From Ruminococcus sp. (lineage in GTDB: Bacteria > Bacillota > Clostridia > Oscillospirales > Ruminococcaceae): a stretch of DNA of 52,797 nucleotides. Positions 43,525 through 49,631 of the stretch are shown here, one piece after another. The position numbers and the translations under genes were made by a program. The stretch spans positions 1 to 52,797 of the forward strand of contig JAFWTA010000036.1 of NCBI GenBank assembly GCA_017519145.1. Reading direction: 5' to 3'. The number at the start of each line of letters is the position of its first letter. Position 1 is the stretch's first letter. Under the pieces are notes generated by a model. The model did not search any database. It worked only from the letters and a program-made list of their open reading frames with translations, and was not told the origin of the DNA.

Positions 43525-45615
43525 TCAATCCATAGTCACGGCGAAGCATACGCTCTCACCGGGCTGATTGATGATATTCAGCTTGAACTTGTGCTTGTCG
43601 ATGATGGACTTAGCTATGGCAAGACCCAGTCCGTAGCCGCCTGTTGCGCGGTTTCTCGACTCGTCGCTGCGGAAGAAGCGCTCGAAGATCTTATCCTGAT
43701 CCTCCACCTTGATGCCCTCGCCCGTATTGAATACGGACAGCACCTTTCTGCCGCCCACCTTCTTCAGCGAAACTCTTACCGTGCCGCCGTCGTTGGAGTA
43801 TTTCAGCGCATTGTCGATGAATATGGCAGCCATCTGCTTAACGTGCTTTTCGCTTCCGCAGAGCATGATATTGTCGTCCACATCCACCTCGAACTTCTTG
43901 TTGCTCTCAAACGCCTGACACTCAAAGGGCAGGGCTGTATTAACGATCGCCTTGCTCATGTTGAAGTACTTGTACTCCAGCTCAACGGTGTTGTTTTCCA
44001 GCCTTGTAAGATTCAGCAGGTCATTTACCAGCACGTTCATGCGGTCTGTCTGAGACTTTATGTAGTTGAGCCACTTGTTCTCACCTATCTCGCCCTGAAG
44101 AACGTCTGTATTTGCGGAGATGACCGTAAGAGGAGTCTTGAGCTCGTGGCTTGCATCCGATACGAACTGCTTCTGCTTGTTGAAAGCTATCTTGATAGGC
44201 TGGATACTCTTCTTGCTGAGGAAATACGCCAGAATGGACAGTATTATCAGCGCGATGGAGCCGATGATGATAGTGGTGCGCTTGAGCTGTCTGAGCATAT
44301 CCATCTCATAGCTCTTGTCTGTCAGCACTATGAGGTTTCCGTTGGACTTGTCAGCCTGATAGTACTGATATGAGTGATACATACCCGTATCGGTATTCTT
44401 GTCGAGGATATCGGTTATGCACTCCTGAGCCGCATCGGCTTTCAGGTCCTCGTTATAGAGCTTTGCAAGGTAATGGCCGTCCTTGTCGGACATGAGCACG
44501 AAAAAGTCGATAGAGCCGAGGCTCTTTGGTATGGGCTCCACCTTTGAAGCGCTTACGGGACTTGCCTCGGGAACAGGTGCAGGCTTTCTGCTCGTATCGT
44601 TCTTTTCGGCGTAAGTGACCTCGTCGCCGCCGTCCCTGTTTGCCAGCACGGTAAAGCCGTCGAGGACGTCCTCGCCGCTGTAAACGGTCTGCATAAGGTG
44701 GGGCTCGCTGTCGTCAGATCTTTCAGACTCGCCGCCGTGCTCACGGTGGTAGCTCTCATAGTCGAATTCTTCATTTTCATTGCTGTATGCCTTTGGAGCC
44801 TGTCCCCACTGCTGCTGGTTCCACGGGTTCCAAGGGCTCCACGGATTCCATGGGTTCCAAGGGTTCCACGGGTCGTAGGGGTTCCAGTTGGGGTCGTACT
44901 GACCGGTTCCCCAGCCGTTCTGACCGCCGTCGCCATTGCCCCAGCCGCCGTTCTGACCGTCGCCGCCCCAGCTTCCCCAGTCGCCCCAGCTGCCCTGACC
45001 GCCGTTATTGTTATTGTCGTTATTTGGCAGAGTGGGAGCCGTCCATTCCTGCTGGCTCTCCTGACTCTCGGACCTTCTGGGCTGAGTCTCGGGCTGTCTC
45101 GGCTGAGTTTCGGGCTGCTTGAAGGGCACCTCATTCTGATTGCCCTGATTATCATTGGGATTTGGCTGAGCCTCAGGCTGCTCCTGCTGCTCGTAATCGT
45201 TCTCCTCGTAGGTCTCGGTATCCGTTGCCTCCTCCGCAGAGGTGGTGACGGCAGCTGTCTCTGTAGTCTTTGCGGTAGTAGTAACACTTTCCGTAGTGAC
45301 AGCGGCTGACGATGAGGTGACCTCCGCAGTTGTGACAGCCTCAGTGGGCTTTTTTGCGGGCTCCGAGGGCTTTCCGTTCTTGGGCTCGCCGTTATCGGGC
45401 GGAGTGAACATGAACTTCAGCTCCTTGTCGTTATACTCCGTACCCGCAGCTATCTGCATGAGGACTTCCTTTGACTGACCTCTCATGACAGCCTTGGTGA
45501 TGACGTTTATGGAGCTTATGAGCGCGATGAACACTGCGAGGAGTATGCTCACTATCATGGTGAACAGCCTCATCTGCGCTTTTCTGAACATCTGATCGTT
45601 ATTTTTCTTTGCCAT
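43525..45615 (-). CDS. Sensor histidine kinase with Trp/Asn/Pro-rich extracellular segment
   Basis: A 696-aa membrane kinase. Membrane segments lie at about 17-39 and 447-466. The extracellular part includes a Thr-rich stretch (90-130), a Gln/Pro stretch (145-180), a Gly/Trp/Asn stretch (191-270, with repeats PWN), then a folded region to about 445. HisKA has SHELKTPLTVI with His490; the HATPase has FIDNALKYSND and GYGLGLAIAKSI. It follows its response regulator by 14 nt. The ligand is unknown; the Trp-rich segment could bind carbohydrate or wall polymer. Confidence 0.93.
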   Translation of the reverse strand: MAKKNNDQMFRKAQMRLFTMIVSILLAVFIALISSINVITKAVMRGQSKEVLMQIAAGTEYNDKELKFMFTPPDNGEPKNGKPSEPAKKPTEAVTTAEVTSSSAAVTTESVTTTAKTTETAAVTTSAEEATDTETYEENDYEQQEQPEAQPNPNDNQGNQNEVPFKQPETQPRQPETQPRRSESQESQQEWTAPTLPNNDNNNNGGQGSWGDWGSWGGDGQNGGWGNGDGGQNGWGTGQYDPNWNPYDPWNPWNPWNPWSPWNPWNQQQWGQAPKAYSNENEEFDYESYHREHGGESERSDDSEPHLMQTVYSGEDVLDGFTVLANRDGGDEVTYAEKNDTSRKPAPVPEASPVSASKVEPIPKSLGSIDFFVLMSDKDGHYLAKLYNEDLKADAAQECITDILDKNTDTGMYHSYQYYQADKSNGNLIVLTDKSYEMDMLRQLKRTTIIIGSIALIILSILAYFLSKKSIQPIKIAFNKQKQFVSDASHELKTPLTVISANTDVLQGEIGENKWLNYIKSQTDRMNVLVNDLLNLTRLENNTVELEYKYFNMSKAIVNTALPFECQAFESNKKFEVDVDDNIMLCGSEKHVKQMAAIFIDNALKYSNDGGTVRVSLKKVGGRKVLSVFNTGEGIKVEDQDKIFERFFRSDESRNRATGGYGLGLAIAKSIIDKHKFKLNIINQPGESVCFAVTMD

Positions 45616-45629
45616 GGCAGCATTCCTCC

Positions 45630-46298
45630 TTACTCAAGTGAATAGCCGATACCCCGGGCTGTTTTGATCTGAACGGGAGCCGAGATGACAGAGAGCTTCT
45701 TTCTAAGGAAGGATATGTACACCTCGATGTTGTTATACTCAACATCGCTCTCATAGCCCCAGATCTTCTCGATTATGCGCTCCTTGGGGAGTATCTGATG
45801 GGGATTGGAGATAAGCAGCTCCATGATCTGATACTCCTTCAGTGAAAGCTTTACATCGTTGCCCTGCCACATTACAGAGCAGGTGTTCTTATTGAGCTCA
45901 AGGCCGTTGTAATCCAGCCTGTTCTCATCGACGATCTCGCCCTTTCTTCTGGTGAGGGCGCGGACTCTCGCCAGCAGCTCTCCCGTAACGAAGGGCTTTG
46001 TCAGATAGTCGTCAGCGCCGCCGTCAAGGCCGTTGATCTTATCCTCGATCTCGCTTCGTGCGGTGAGCAGCAGGACGGGAGTGCTTATCCTCTCCTGTCT
46101 CAGCTTTCTCAGCACCTCCAGACCGTTCATGCCGGGAAGCATGATGTCGAGGATGATACAGTCGTACACGCCTGTCATGGCATTATCAAGACCGTCTATA
46201 CCGTTGTAAGCGGTGTCAACATTATACATATTTCTTTTAAGGATCTCCGAAAGAGCATCCGCAAGCTGCATCTCGTCTTCAACCACGAGAACTCTCAT
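45630..46298 (-). CDS. OmpR/PhoB family response regulator
   Basis: A 222-aa regulator. The receiver domain has MRVLVVEDE and phospho-acceptor Asp in DCIILDIMLPGMNG, with LTARSE and the KPF lysine. The C-terminal winged helix has LSLKEYQIMELLISNPHQILPKERIIEKIWG and NIEVYISFLRKKL. ATG at 46298 follows GGGGGA; the longer frame is rejected. Partner of the downstream kinase. Confidence 0.96.
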   Translation of the reverse strand: MRVLVVEDEMQLADALSEILKRNMYNVDTAYNGIDGLDNAMTGVYDCIILDIMLPGMNGLEVLRKLRQERISTPVLLLTARSEIEDKINGLDGGADDYLTKPFVTGELLARVRALTRRKGEIVDENRLDYNGLELNKNTCSVMWQGNDVKLSLKEYQIMELLISNPHQILPKERIIEKIWGYESDVEYNNIEVYISFLRKKLSVISAPVQIKTARGIGYSLE

Positions 46299-46396
46299 AT
46301 ATATTCCCCCTTGGAACTTCTCTGCCCCTGCGGCAGAGGGTATGTCATAGCACGGGGAGCAGTCACTCCGAGAGCACACCGCTCCACTCTACTATT

Positions 46397-46633: not shown

Positions 46634-47335
46634 ATGATTTCACCGTCAGAACGTAAAAAGATAGGATTTTCGCTGCTGACATCTCACAGCGCCGAGATGA
46701 AAAAATACGTTGACGTGTATGCTTTATACATTGAAAAGGGATATACCAAGGATCTGTGCGAAGCCTATGCGGACGCCTTCATCGACAACGCAAAAAAGCC
46801 CTCGCCCTTTGATATAGTCCAGCTGGCATCACTGTACGGCAGGATACACGACTACAAATCGGCTGCCTTTTATCTTGAAAAGCTTGAAGACAAAAAGCTC
46901 AGCGGCGACGAAAAATTCGCCTACTGTGTCGAGACTCTTGCCACCGTCAGCAAGATAGGCAACTGGCGCGACGCAGAGGACTTCCGCACGAGGAACATAA
47001 GCTTCCTCCAGAAGCACACGGCAAAGATCACGCCCCAGAAGGAGGCTGACATGTACATCGCCCTTGCACTGGCGGACTGTGCTGCAAAGAACTACCAGCA
47101 GGCACTGAAGCTGCTGAAGTTCGGCTACAAGCCTCAGGGCGCAAAGGACCTTACTCTCCTTGAGATATTCATTACGGTAGTATACATTTTCGCCAAGGCA
47201 GGCGACGATGAGGGACTTGAGGGCGCTCTTCAGAACGCCGAGGGCTGCCTCAGGCTGTTCAAGCAGTTTGATTTTGCATGGCAGGCTTCCTACTACCGCA
47301 GACGTATCGAGGATGCAGCCAACGGAATATTATGA
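46634..47335 (+). CDS. TPR-like helical repeat protein, unknown function
   Basis: A 233-aa soluble, almost all-helical protein with helix pairs of TPR character (SPFDIVQLASLYGRIHDYKSAAFYLEKLED, EADMYIALALADCAAKNYQQALKLLKFG). No catalytic motif. ATG at 46634 follows GGGGG by 10 nt; an upstream in-frame start at 46538 overlaps the -10 box. It stands alone between a two-component operon and a long non-coding region, with its own promoter and terminator. Probably a protein-interaction scaffold. Confidence 0.82.
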   Translation: MISPSERKKIGFSLLTSHSAEMKKYVDVYALYIEKGYTKDLCEAYADAFIDNAKKPSPFDIVQLASLYGRIHDYKSAAFYLEKLEDKKLSGDEKFAYCVETLATVSKIGNWRDAEDFRTRNISFLQKHTAKITPQKEADMYIALALADCAAKNYQQALKLLKFGYKPQGAKDLTLLEIFITVVYIFAKAGDDEGLEGALQNAEGCLRLFKQFDFAWQASYYRRRIEDAANGIL

Positions 47336-47341
47336 CATAAG

Positions 47342-47371
47342 GCTCCGGGGAACAGACTTCGGAGCTTTTTT
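47342..47371 (+). terminator. Terminator of the TPR-like gene
   Basis: GCTCCG (47342-47347) pairs with CGGAGC (47360-47365), followed by six T. Confidence 0.82.
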
Positions 47372-47372
47372 G

Positions 47373-47736
47373 TAGCACAAAAATCGTTAAAACAAAAAAA
47401 TATATGAAGAATTTCCATATTTTTTATGAATTTTCTTCCGAGCCATTTTTTTGTATGATTTAACTAACATATTTCATCTGTATAATCACAATTGAATATT
47501 ACAGATTGTTAAAAACCCGGATTTTCACAGCACAAATTGTGCAAGCGCCGAAAACAACGCATCTGCGTTGATTTCAGAGTTCGGGAACTGCCTCCGGAAT
47601 ACGAAAAACACAGCAAAATCTGCATATATGAATATTATATGAACGTATAAAATATTCAGTTTTGTTCATAATTGCTTAATATAAATAATTGAATTTTATT
47701 TAGCAATATAGTGCTAATTTCAAGCAATATAATCAA
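47373..47736. other. AT-rich intergenic region with two small hairpins
   Basis: No credible gene. Two perfect palindromic stems, GCACAA-A-TTGTGC (47530-47542) and CAACGCA-TC-TGCGTTG (47555-47570), lie close together in a locally GC-richer island (about 47512-47610). A TATAAT at 47481-47486 precedes them without a good -35 box. They may be part of a separate small RNA or an operator. Confidence 0.45.
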
Positions 47737-48226
47737 TTGAACTTTCCTCCCCCATGGGCTATAATACAATTGTTGGAAGAACAGAGACCGAAAAATCGGT
47801 CTCCATCCACCACATAATTACATCAAGATATATTATGTGTCCTGTAACAAAATCGGCAATTATATCCTGTTTTGCTCGATACGGTTTTAAACTCCGCCGT
47901 ATCCATGCCACATCAACCAGTTCCAAAAGACATCTTACTTATTCACAACTGTTATTAAACATTAATGCCTATAATATGTTTAATCGCCTAAGGCAGTTTC
48001 CAAATCGCTTAAAACGTTACGACAGTAGTGATAACAAAGCAAAGGGATATATGGCACTACGGAATTTGTGCCTGCCGTACGGCATCTGCGTATAGAGGGT
48101 GCGCAGCCGCCAACTCGATAGCGACCTTGATTGGCTTTTGAGAGGGTGTCAATGAAGGTCGTTATTATTTTGCCAGTTCCGGTTCTATACCTATATAAAA
48201 AAGGCTGTCTCAGGACAGCCTTTTTT
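47737..48226 (+). ncRNA. Candidate uncharacterised structured non-coding RNA
   Basis: A promoter TTGAAC (47737-47742), 17 bp, TATAAT (47760-47765) is followed by no credible protein gene. About 12 nt after the predicted start is GAGACCGA-AAAA-TCGGTCTC (47784-47803). Further hairpins are GATACGG/CCGTATC (47878-47903), TGCCGTACGGCA (48073-48084), CTGCG/CGCAG (48086-48106) and GCGACCTT-ATTG/CAAT-AAGGTCGT (48121-48162). The unit ends in a strong terminator, for an RNA of about 455 nt. Signature sequences of RNase P RNA, tmRNA, T-box and c-di-GMP riboswitches were looked for and not seen. A weak 113-codon frame overlaps the promoter and is rejected. Confidence 0.5.
48197..48226. terminator. Bidirectional terminator between the ncRNA candidate and glmU
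   Basis: GGCTGTC-TCAG-GACAGCC flanked by six A and six T, so it works on both strands. It ends glmU (minus) and whatever is transcribed from 47772 (plus). Confidence 0.92.
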
Positions 48227-48235
48227 ACTTTTATA

Positions 48236-49612
48236 TCACTTTCCCAGCTTGCTCTTGAGCTTTCTGAGAGTATAGCCCTCGTTTATCTTCATAACGCCTC
48301 TGTCGATAGCCAGTGCATAGTCGGGAACGTCCCTTGTTACGGTGGTTCCTGCGGCTGTGTATACAGCCTTGCCCAGCTTTACGGGAGCGATGAGATTGGT
48401 GTTGCAGCCGACGAAGCAGTTGTCCCCGATAACACAGCGGCTCTTTGCGATACCGTCGTAGTTTACGGTAACAGTTCCGCAGCCGATGTTCACGCGCTTT
48501 CCGATGTCGCTGTCGCCGACGTAGGCAAGATGCGCGATGGCAGTCTTTTCGCCGATGGTGGAGTTCTTTATCTCCACGAAGTCGCCTATCTTAGCGCCCG
48601 ACTTCACAACGCTGTCGGGACGTATATGAACGTAGGGACCTATCTTTACGCCCGACTCTATCTCCGACTCGTAAGCCTGCACTGTGTGGAGGTTCACATC
48701 GTCGCCTATCTTACAGTTCTCCACCACAGTATTGGGACCTATCTTGCAGTTCCTGCCGATGGTGGTATTTTTTCTTATTATAGTATTGGGAAGTATCTCC
48801 GTACCCACACCTATCTCAACGCCGCGCTCGATGACAACGCCGTCTGTGCAGGTAAACTCAACGCCGTTGGCAAGGTGCTTTTCGATAACAGCCATTCTTG
48901 CGTAGGTGTTCAGCTCAAGGAGGTCCTTTCTGTCGTTGGCTCCCCTGATGATATCGGCGTTCTCGGACTTGTACGCGCCTGCGTTCTTGCCTTCTGCAAG
49001 AGCGATGGCGATGGTGTCGGTGAGGTAGTACTCGTTCTGCACATTATCATTGCTGAGCTTGCCAAGAAGCTCGATGAGGTCGGCGGTCCTGAACCAGTAT
49101 GTGCCGGAATTCACTTCTTTTATCTGACGCTGCTCCTCGGTAGCGTCCTTCTGCTCAACTATGCCGCTGATGCCGCCTGCCGAGCGGATTATCCTGCCGT
49201 AGCCGAAAGGATTTTCCAGCTCTGCAGTGATGACCGTAACAGCGTTGTTCTGCTGCTTGTGGATTATAAGAGACTCCTTGATGGTCTCGGCATCGATAAA
49301 GGGCGCATCTCCGCAGAGCACGAGGGTATGCCCCTCAGTATCCTCCTCGAGGAAAGGCACAGCCTGCTTTACAGCGTGACCTGTACCAAGTCTTTCAGCC
49401 TGAAGCACGGTCTTGTACTGACCGTCCAGATACTCATCTATCATCTCGCCCTTGAAGCCCTTGACCACGCATATATCCGTAAGGTCAGCCGCTTCACAGG
49501 CAGATATCACCCAGCGGAGCATGGGCTCGCCGAGAACCTTGAAAAGAGGCTTGGGCATTTCCGCCTTCATGCGCTTGCCCTGTCCGCCTGCAAGAATAAC
49601 TGCTTTGTTCAT
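48236..49612 (-). CDS. glmU: Bifunctional GlcNAc-1-phosphate uridylyltransferase / GlcN-1-phosphate acetyltransferase
   Basis: A 458-aa enzyme making UDP-GlcNAc for cell wall. The N-terminal uridylyltransferase has LAGGQGKRMKAEMPKPL and LVLCGDAPFI. The C-terminal left-handed beta helix shows hexapeptide repeats (IGVGTEILPNTIIRKNTTIGRNCKIG) and the NYDG catalytic region. ATG at 49612 follows AGGAGG by 8 nt; an in-frame start 18 nt upstream overlaps that site. It is the last gene after the esterase. Confidence 0.96.
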   Translation of the reverse strand: MNKAVILAGGQGKRMKAEMPKPLFKVLGEPMLRWVISACEAADLTDICVVKGFKGEMIDEYLDGQYKTVLQAERLGTGHAVKQAVPFLEEDTEGHTLVLCGDAPFIDAETIKESLIIHKQQNNAVTVITAELENPFGYGRIIRSAGGISGIVEQKDATEEQRQIKEVNSGTYWFRTADLIELLGKLSNDNVQNEYYLTDTIAIALAEGKNAGAYKSENADIIRGANDRKDLLELNTYARMAVIEKHLANGVEFTCTDGVVIERGVEIGVGTEILPNTIIRKNTTIGRNCKIGPNTVVENCKIGDDVNLHTVQAYESEIESGVKIGPYVHIRPDSVVKSGAKIGDFVEIKNSTIGEKTAIAHLAYVGDSDIGKRVNIGCGTVTVNYDGIAKSRCVIGDNCFVGCNTNLIAPVKLGKAVYTAAGTTVTRDVPDYALAIDRGVMKINEGYTLRKLKSKLGK

Positions 49613-49631
49613 TGTGTTTTCCTCCTGCATT

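Follow-up and report, generated by a model that had tools for sequence, protein, structure and literature searches.

Between the gene for an uncharacterized protein with a predicted TPR-type fold and the convergent gene glmU, the window (that is, the whole 52,797-nucleotide stretch analysed here) carries a forward-strand segment of roughly 400 nt, at about 47772-48170, that we assign from sequence comparison to a stand-alone structured RNA (Table 1). A sequence-only reading had marked this region as a possible long structured RNA of about 455 nt, enclosed by a promoter and a strong terminator and free of a credible protein gene; it named folding, Rfam/Infernal and blastn searches and covariation among homologues as checks, and conservation solely as a coding frame as a sign against it. 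The structured RNA is upheld by both covariation and folding, but its most likely length is about 400 nt. The stretch 47770-48226 folds with a z-score of −6.06 and the trimmed stretch 47772-48170 with one of −5.87, none of 100 shuffles being equally good in either case, and its GC content of 0.41 differs, as that reading had noticed, from those of the upstream open reading frame (0.51) and glmU (0.53).

Table 1 Features of the RNA locus and its surroundings, in window coordinates.
Feature	Coordinates	Strand	Basis or remark
OmpR-type regulator gene	45630-46379		Pfam Response_reg and Trans_reg_C; near the RNA
TPR-fold gene, 233 aa, uncharacterized	46634-47335	+	In most cases immediately 5′ of the RNA
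Terminator-like hairpin of the TPR gene	47340-47371	+	12 pairs, −17.0 kcal/mol, leading into a run of T
Conserved upstream box: near-palindrome TTAGCAATATAGTGCTAA plus AGCAATATAATCAATTGA	47700-47739	+	Conservation
Promoter TTGAAC-17-TATAAT	47737-47765	+	Sequence match and conservation
P1, 5′ hairpin	47774-47809	+	P1a 47774-47777/47806-47809; P1b 47784-47790/47797-47803
P2 hairpin, then near-invariant UGUGUCCUGU	47811-47839	+	67% of cells paired, weak
P3, long-range stem	47853-47858 with 48073-48078	+	Covariation
P3b	47861-47867 with 48045-48051	+	Covariation
P4 hairpin, conserved loop AAACUCC	47878-47903	+	73% of cells paired
P5 core hairpin (P5a, P5b)	47947-47998	+	Ultra-conserved loop UAAUGCCUAUAAU, 3′ side UCGCCUAAA
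P6 hairpin GGCAC/GUGCC	48053-48072	+	92% of cells paired; both-side changes in 4 of 5 pairs
P7 hairpin, loop UAGAGGG	48081-48111	+	91% of cells paired; both-side changes in 10 of 12 pairs
P8 hairpin, loop with invariant GAGAGG	48119-48164	+	95% of cells paired; both-side changes in 15 of 16 pairs
Second terminator-like hairpin	48196-48227	both	Between the RNA and the end of glmU; outside the conserved fold of the RNA
glmU	48236-49630	−	Convergent to the RNA

The promoter that had been pointed out is present, with 10 of 12 consensus matches, and so are the hairpin 12 nt past the predicted start and the further hairpins behind it. On its own, such a promoter is unremarkable, as six promoter-like sites occur on both strands of 47000-49000 compared to 3.2 expected from shuffles. 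It is, however, conserved: over 71 upstream regions, aligned by approximate matching of the −10 region (a procedure that favours the −10 itself) and taken without four loci whose 5′ ends are cut or misplaced (L014, L057, L067 and L068), the footprint comprises TTGA at −35, TATAATA at −10 and most bases to about +8, with TATAATA, TTGA and two GCAAT boxes each at least 90% conserved. The conserved box upstream of it may be a regulator or UP-like site. Its 17-mer TAGCAATATAGTGCTAA has one exact occurrence in its own genome; the reverse reading at the same place has two mismatches and the other nine matches have three, with no excess over a control pattern. Beside the −35 lie GC(A/T)AAT repeats spaced by 10–11 bp, which we take to resemble tandem OmpR/PhoB-type sites. 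The nearby OmpR-type regulator is a lead only as their reader, because it is also found in 22 of the 26 genomes that lack the RNA. In the histidine kinase encoded beside this cassette (43525-45615, reverse strand), the kinase domain is preceded by a long low-complexity insert with many NPW repeats.

Since the TPR gene is followed by a terminator-like hairpin (47340-47371), this gene and the RNA are probably separate transcription units. The stretch of 320 bp that separates the TPR gene from the promoter of the RNA also folds (−43 kcal/mol for the spacer 47475-47660) and aligns over its full length in the closest relatives only. At the other end, P8 is followed by five to eight T within an 8-nt stretch in all 65 aligned sequences, so the RNA most likely ends at about 48165-48172, with P8 most likely doubling as its terminator. 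The strong terminator noticed earlier does exist as a hairpin, at 48196-48227, but the 3′ end of the RNA is more likely at P8; the opposite strand of this hairpin gives a match in a search of its own genome.

No credible protein gene was found, in agreement with the first reading. Of 64 relatives, 63 have a frameshift in the 113-aa open reading frame at 47754-48095 and all 64 have a stop in it, none of them keeping the frame, and conservation follows the RNA structure instead of a coding frame.

By blastn (E ≤ 0.01), 77 of 100 Ruminococcus genomes have a match. We prefer a covariance model for counting because a few of the blastn matches cover the terminator only; with a model of the 3′ domain (R1), the RNA is present in 74 of the 100 genomes. 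Two of them (G056 and G065) have two loci each, most others have one copy, and the genome of the window has a single full copy. A scan of 396 genomes of the family with R1 gave eight matches, seven in the same genus and one weak, and a scan of 394 genomes of the order with a P4-P5 model (R2) gave two, both in the genus; as these scans used strict filters and scored nine candidates per genome, distant relatives may be missed. The weak match of the family scan, in another genus (G268, E = 0.0076), was rejected as chance, its locus (L185) giving no match to the P4-P5 model. No match was found among 50,697 phage records, nor among viral contigs for the one core pattern searched.

Among the best 80 of 87 related stretches, which were examined by title, the named relatives are mostly Ruminococcus flavefaciens and Ruminococcus sp., and named isolates that carry the RNA include R. 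flavefaciens FD-1, 007c, ATCC 19208, MA2007 and ND2009. Six stretches titled as other groups lack a match to the 3′ domain, match the P4-P5 model weakly and were set aside as chance: L114, L120, L132 and L154 match its core only, L145 matches the core and gives two weak full-length matches (E of 0.5–0.6), and L137, the least certain of these calls, has a full-length match of 26.3 bits (E = 3.4 × 10−4). A seventh, L122, titled Alistipes sp. NALB_7813_19, has a genuine copy, scoring 69.5 bits with the 3′-domain model and 80.2 bits with the P4-P5 model and adjoining a TPR gene that is 51% identical; it would be a mislabelled metagenome bin or a transfer.

At gathering score, Rfam 15 finds only two tRNAs in the whole window, both at 1-137 and away from the RNA, and nothing in 20 divergent relatives; permissive searches (E ≤ 5) returned scattered, unrelated, sub-threshold families, none recurring across the relatives. 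The absence of a signature of common RNAs, asserted earlier, is thus borne out. The 6S (RF00013) and RNase P (RF00010) RNAs share with the new RNA that they are stand-alone and structured, and both were rejected as its identity: their matches lie at G000:C36:77746-77930 and G000:C36:194857-195203, respectively, and each is found once above cut-off, elsewhere than the RNA, in all 22 genomes searched (11 with and 11 without the RNA). The raiA motif, or ModT RNA, is another stand-alone structured RNA of Clostridia, described as trans-acting (PMC11706538). Its model (RF03072) matches neither the RNA region nor 13 of its loci at E ≤ 5 and gives no match at E ≤ 1 in 22 Ruminococcus genomes, a result to be read alongside 14 control genomes, which also have none above cut-off.

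The large, ornate bacterial RNAs were compared in the same way, and the covariance models of OLE, ROOL and GOLLD have no match at gathering score, nor at E ≤ 5 in the RNA region and 13 loci. The ole and oapA genes are neighbours, and ROOL and GOLLD are longer than the new RNA. OLE is described as a large structured RNA that works with protein partners (PMC10898510). The likeness to OLE-OapA is one of logic, not of sequence: a large structured RNA and a protein partner, which is a candidate here; unlike in OLE, this candidate has the helical repeats of a TPR protein, and its RNA, some 400 nt in length, is found in Ruminococcus. ROOL and GOLLD resemble the new RNA in being ornate, with several hairpins and conserved loops, but the latter has no Rfam match, is shorter, occurs as one copy in most genomes that carry it and is not seen in the phage records or, by its core pattern, in the viral contigs. 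By the tests run, we place the RNA in no catalogued family. The leading literature results hold no description of it, and a 2021 human-microbiome screen (PMC8040213) may include it as an unnamed entry.

The conserved fold was evaluated on an alignment (A3) of 65 non-redundant sequences from 75 loci, with 86 pairs defined from RNAalifold, the own fold of the window and an earlier list of mutual information (MI) pairs. Across the 65 relatives, 82.9% of the cells at these pairs can base-pair, compared to 34–42% with partners slid. The covariation score is 0.357, compared to 0.08–0.10 with slid partners and 0.178 with shuffles (0 of 500 as high), both being nulls that do not include the kinship of the relatives. 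In 71 of the 86 pairs both sides change. The helices thus show compensatory changes on both sides beyond the controls, as predicted for a covarying RNA family.

By unfiltered MI-APC, from which L067 and L068 were omitted for the same defect at their 5′ ends, all of the top 10 column pairs and 15 of the top 20 fall in the structure (expectation for the top 20, 0.02) and five of the top 20 fall outside it, a support that is not wholly independent because an earlier MI list had contributed to the structure. A search for pseudoknots and loop-loop contacts, run on the alignment without these two loci, gave isolated column pairs outside the structure (134-416, z = 7.7; 170-526, z = 7.2) and no runs. 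RNAalifold itself predicts P7 and P8 in the 3′ part, with both-side changes in 25 of 29 pairs, and in the P4-P5 part seven pairs, all of P5b.

In the fold that emerges from this alignment, P3 closes a predicted three-way-junction domain with P3b and P6, P3b carries P4 and P5, and P7 and P8 follow. Towards the 5′ end, P1 has 62–64% of its cells paired, a weak support on A3, with P1b stable in the own fold of the window, and P2 seems by inspection to adopt an alternative pairing in some relatives. Five pairs of the long-range stem P3 form in 90% of cells, all five with changes on both sides, and the sixth (47858-48073) in 59%; the stem is swapped outright to CCCAC/GUGGG in L060 and L061, GCAGC/GCUGC in L059 and CGAC/GUCG in L046. 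L060 and L061, the two divergent copies of genome G056, also have a changed UCCUGU segment in addition to their rewritten P3. In P3b, two pairs reach 93% of cells, one of them with 14 both-side changes, and the other five reach 63–66%. P4 has both-side changes in five of seven pairs below a loop whose columns are invariant or nearly so, and P5 combines invariant columns with a P5b that is paired in 97% of cells (both-side changes in seven of nine pairs) and a P5a that is paired in 75%. The P7 loop has an invariant GAGGGU (65 of 65), and the same short motif, GAGGG, stands in the loops of both P7 and P8 on otherwise fast-changing stems. Other conserved loops are C-rich: UCCUGU, AAACUCC and, twice, GCCUA. 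One relative has an extra hairpin of about 30 nt between P7 and P8 (L077:2556-2699).

Upstream of the RNA, the TPR protein has no match above cut-off in Pfam or NCBIfam, none in PHROG and none below an E value of 0.5 among PDB sequences. Its AlphaFold2 model is all-helical (mean pLDDT 94.4, pTM 0.90) and its nearest PDB folds are helical repeats, TPR and similar (best E = 6.6 × 10−3, MamA; none ≤0.001), other weak matches being kinesin light chain, plasmid Rap and a designed PPR. On the strength of the model, we predict with confidence a TPR-type helical repeat.

A match to this protein (E ≤ 1 × 10−5) is found in 77 of the 100 genomes of the genus, and its distribution largely parallels that of the RNA. 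With the match in G021 (23% identity) counted as absent, both are present in 71 genomes and both absent in 21, three have the RNA only and five the TPR protein only, so that 92 of 100 are concordant and eight discordant. The RNA occurs without a TPR match in G030 (99% complete), G036 and G069. Conversely, G016, G053 and G083 have distant TPR proteins (37–44% identity) and no RNA; G066 is undecidable, as its contig (L205) ends about 114 bases past the TPR gene; and in G059, which lacks the RNA, a TPR protein of 53% identity is encoded next to glmU. An unfiltered search for a divergent RNA near the TPR genes of these RNA-negative genomes led to its rejection, L200–L203 giving noise only (best E = 0.042). 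In G059, 328 bp with G/C-rich palindromic repeats occupy the place of the RNA (L200:2169-2495).

By hand count, 56 of the 74 genomes with the RNA have it directly behind the TPR gene. Another 12, also counted by hand, do have a TPR gene, but outside the 0.9–2.5 kb examined upstream of the RNA (G017, G020, G025, G029, G044, G056, G058, G060, G073, G080, G082 and G084); adjacency is undecidable at contig ends in G004, G006 and G088, and three more have no TPR gene. Among 17 genomes lacking both whose regulator locus was inspected, 10 have an empty site, with glmU and the response regulator sharing a contig and lying 97–572 bp apart (for example, 117 bp in L209), and the other seven have no glmU on the stretch examined, several because of a contig end. 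The response regulator itself was rejected as a linked partner: its match at E ≤ 1 × 10−60 occurs in 93 of 100 genomes, 71 of the 74 with the RNA compared to the 22 of 26 without; in G011, which lacks the RNA, the regulator match has 53% identity only.

Trees were built after removing nine loci by hand (near-copies or partial) together with loci lacking a full-length gene. On the regulator tree (48 rows), the RNA changes state five times (well-supported branches require three of these changes) and the TPR gene four times, joint absence falling in three parts of the best tree; on the glmU tree (36 rows), the RNA changes twice and the TPR gene once, with a single joint event. Because there are too few independent pairs, the test of correlated change is not significant, and we regard the pattern of joint change as suggestive.

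The reading that we favour, at about even confidence and from comparison of sequences, is that of a new family of stand-alone, trans-acting structured RNAs of about 400 nt forming the RNA half of an RNA–protein pair. As its conserved sequences suggest, the RNA would be transcribed from its own promoter and end at P8; by covariation and conservation, it folds into the three-way-junction domain followed by P7 and P8 as two display hairpins with GAGGG in both loops, and it would act in trans. The two GAGGG loops would most likely dock on a C-rich partner, and the likely contact points would be these loops together with the C-rich UCCUGU, AAACUCC and GCCUA. The TPR-fold protein would most likely bind the RNA, or else aid its folding or target finding, and we infer this partnership because the two are jointly present or absent, also where their genes lie apart. 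Several observations weigh against such a pair. The TPR protein lacks a basic character, the net charge of 49 such proteins averaging −0.5; most of its weak fold matches are to protein-binding repeats, a designed PPR of an RNA-binding type being the exception; eight genomes are discordant; and the tree test is not significant, with one joint event on the glmU tree. A more specific version is a long shot: the pair would found a new class of bacterial ribonucleoprotein, in which the TPR protein joins a 400-nt RNA whose two identical GAGGG loops, similar to a Shine-Dalgarno sequence, face some C-rich RNA (such as the 16S rRNA 3′ end or the C-rich loops of another copy) and so control translation or assembly in fibre-degrading Ruminococcus.

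A doubtful but substantial competitor is a regulatory RNA that acts by base pairing: P7 and P8 would pair in trans with mRNAs through their GAGGG loops, perhaps along with the C-rich loops, and the TPR gene would be no more than a frequent neighbour. That one short motif recurs in two loops and varies little, if at all, across 65 relatives fits this well, as do the own terminator of the RNA and its occurrence without its usual neighbours. Small RNAs that pair with targets usually manage with less than this fold of 400 nt, several domains and a long-range stem, and the proposal is further weakened because it leaves unexplained why RNA and TPR gene are jointly present or absent even when apart. 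Improbable in our view is self-assembly in the style of OLE, ROOL and GOLLD, which form homo-oligomers with kissing loops (PMC12286853); here, C-rich and G-rich loops would kiss within or between copies, and several near-invariant loops are indeed partly complementary by inspection. The possible pairings are, however, short (three to five pairs, by inspection), and the column pairs scoring high outside the structure are isolated, with no runs; since the loops hardly vary, loop pairings are beyond the reach of covariation.

That the RNA lies just 3′ of the TPR gene in most of its genomes might suggest a cis element, either the 3′ untranslated region of the TPR mRNA or the leader of a downstream gene, which we hold to be very improbable: the TPR gene has its own terminator-like hairpin in the window, a conserved promoter of its own precedes the RNA, which lies away from the TPR gene in 12 genomes, and glmU, being convergent, is not downstream of it. 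Finally, we give almost no credence to a small coding gene with the P8 loop GAGAGGG as the Shine-Dalgarno sequence for a start codon five bases on, as ATG, GTG or TTG does follow the loop by 5–9 nt in 45 of 65 sequences but not in the other 20, the frames that follow run from 7 to at least 100 codons and read differently in all eight compared, and the start-codon bases covary with their stem partners.

Large structured RNAs without a known function are rare, and those that have been solved (6S, tmRNA, OLE and ROOL) opened new biology. The candidate RNA–protein pair described here combines an RNA with strong comparative support and a deep alignment with a clear candidate protein partner, and there are natural pairs of genomes with and without it, including empty sites, as well as isolates that carry it. 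Because of this alignment, candidate partner, empty sites and isolates, the role of the RNA in rumen fibre degraders is directly testable.
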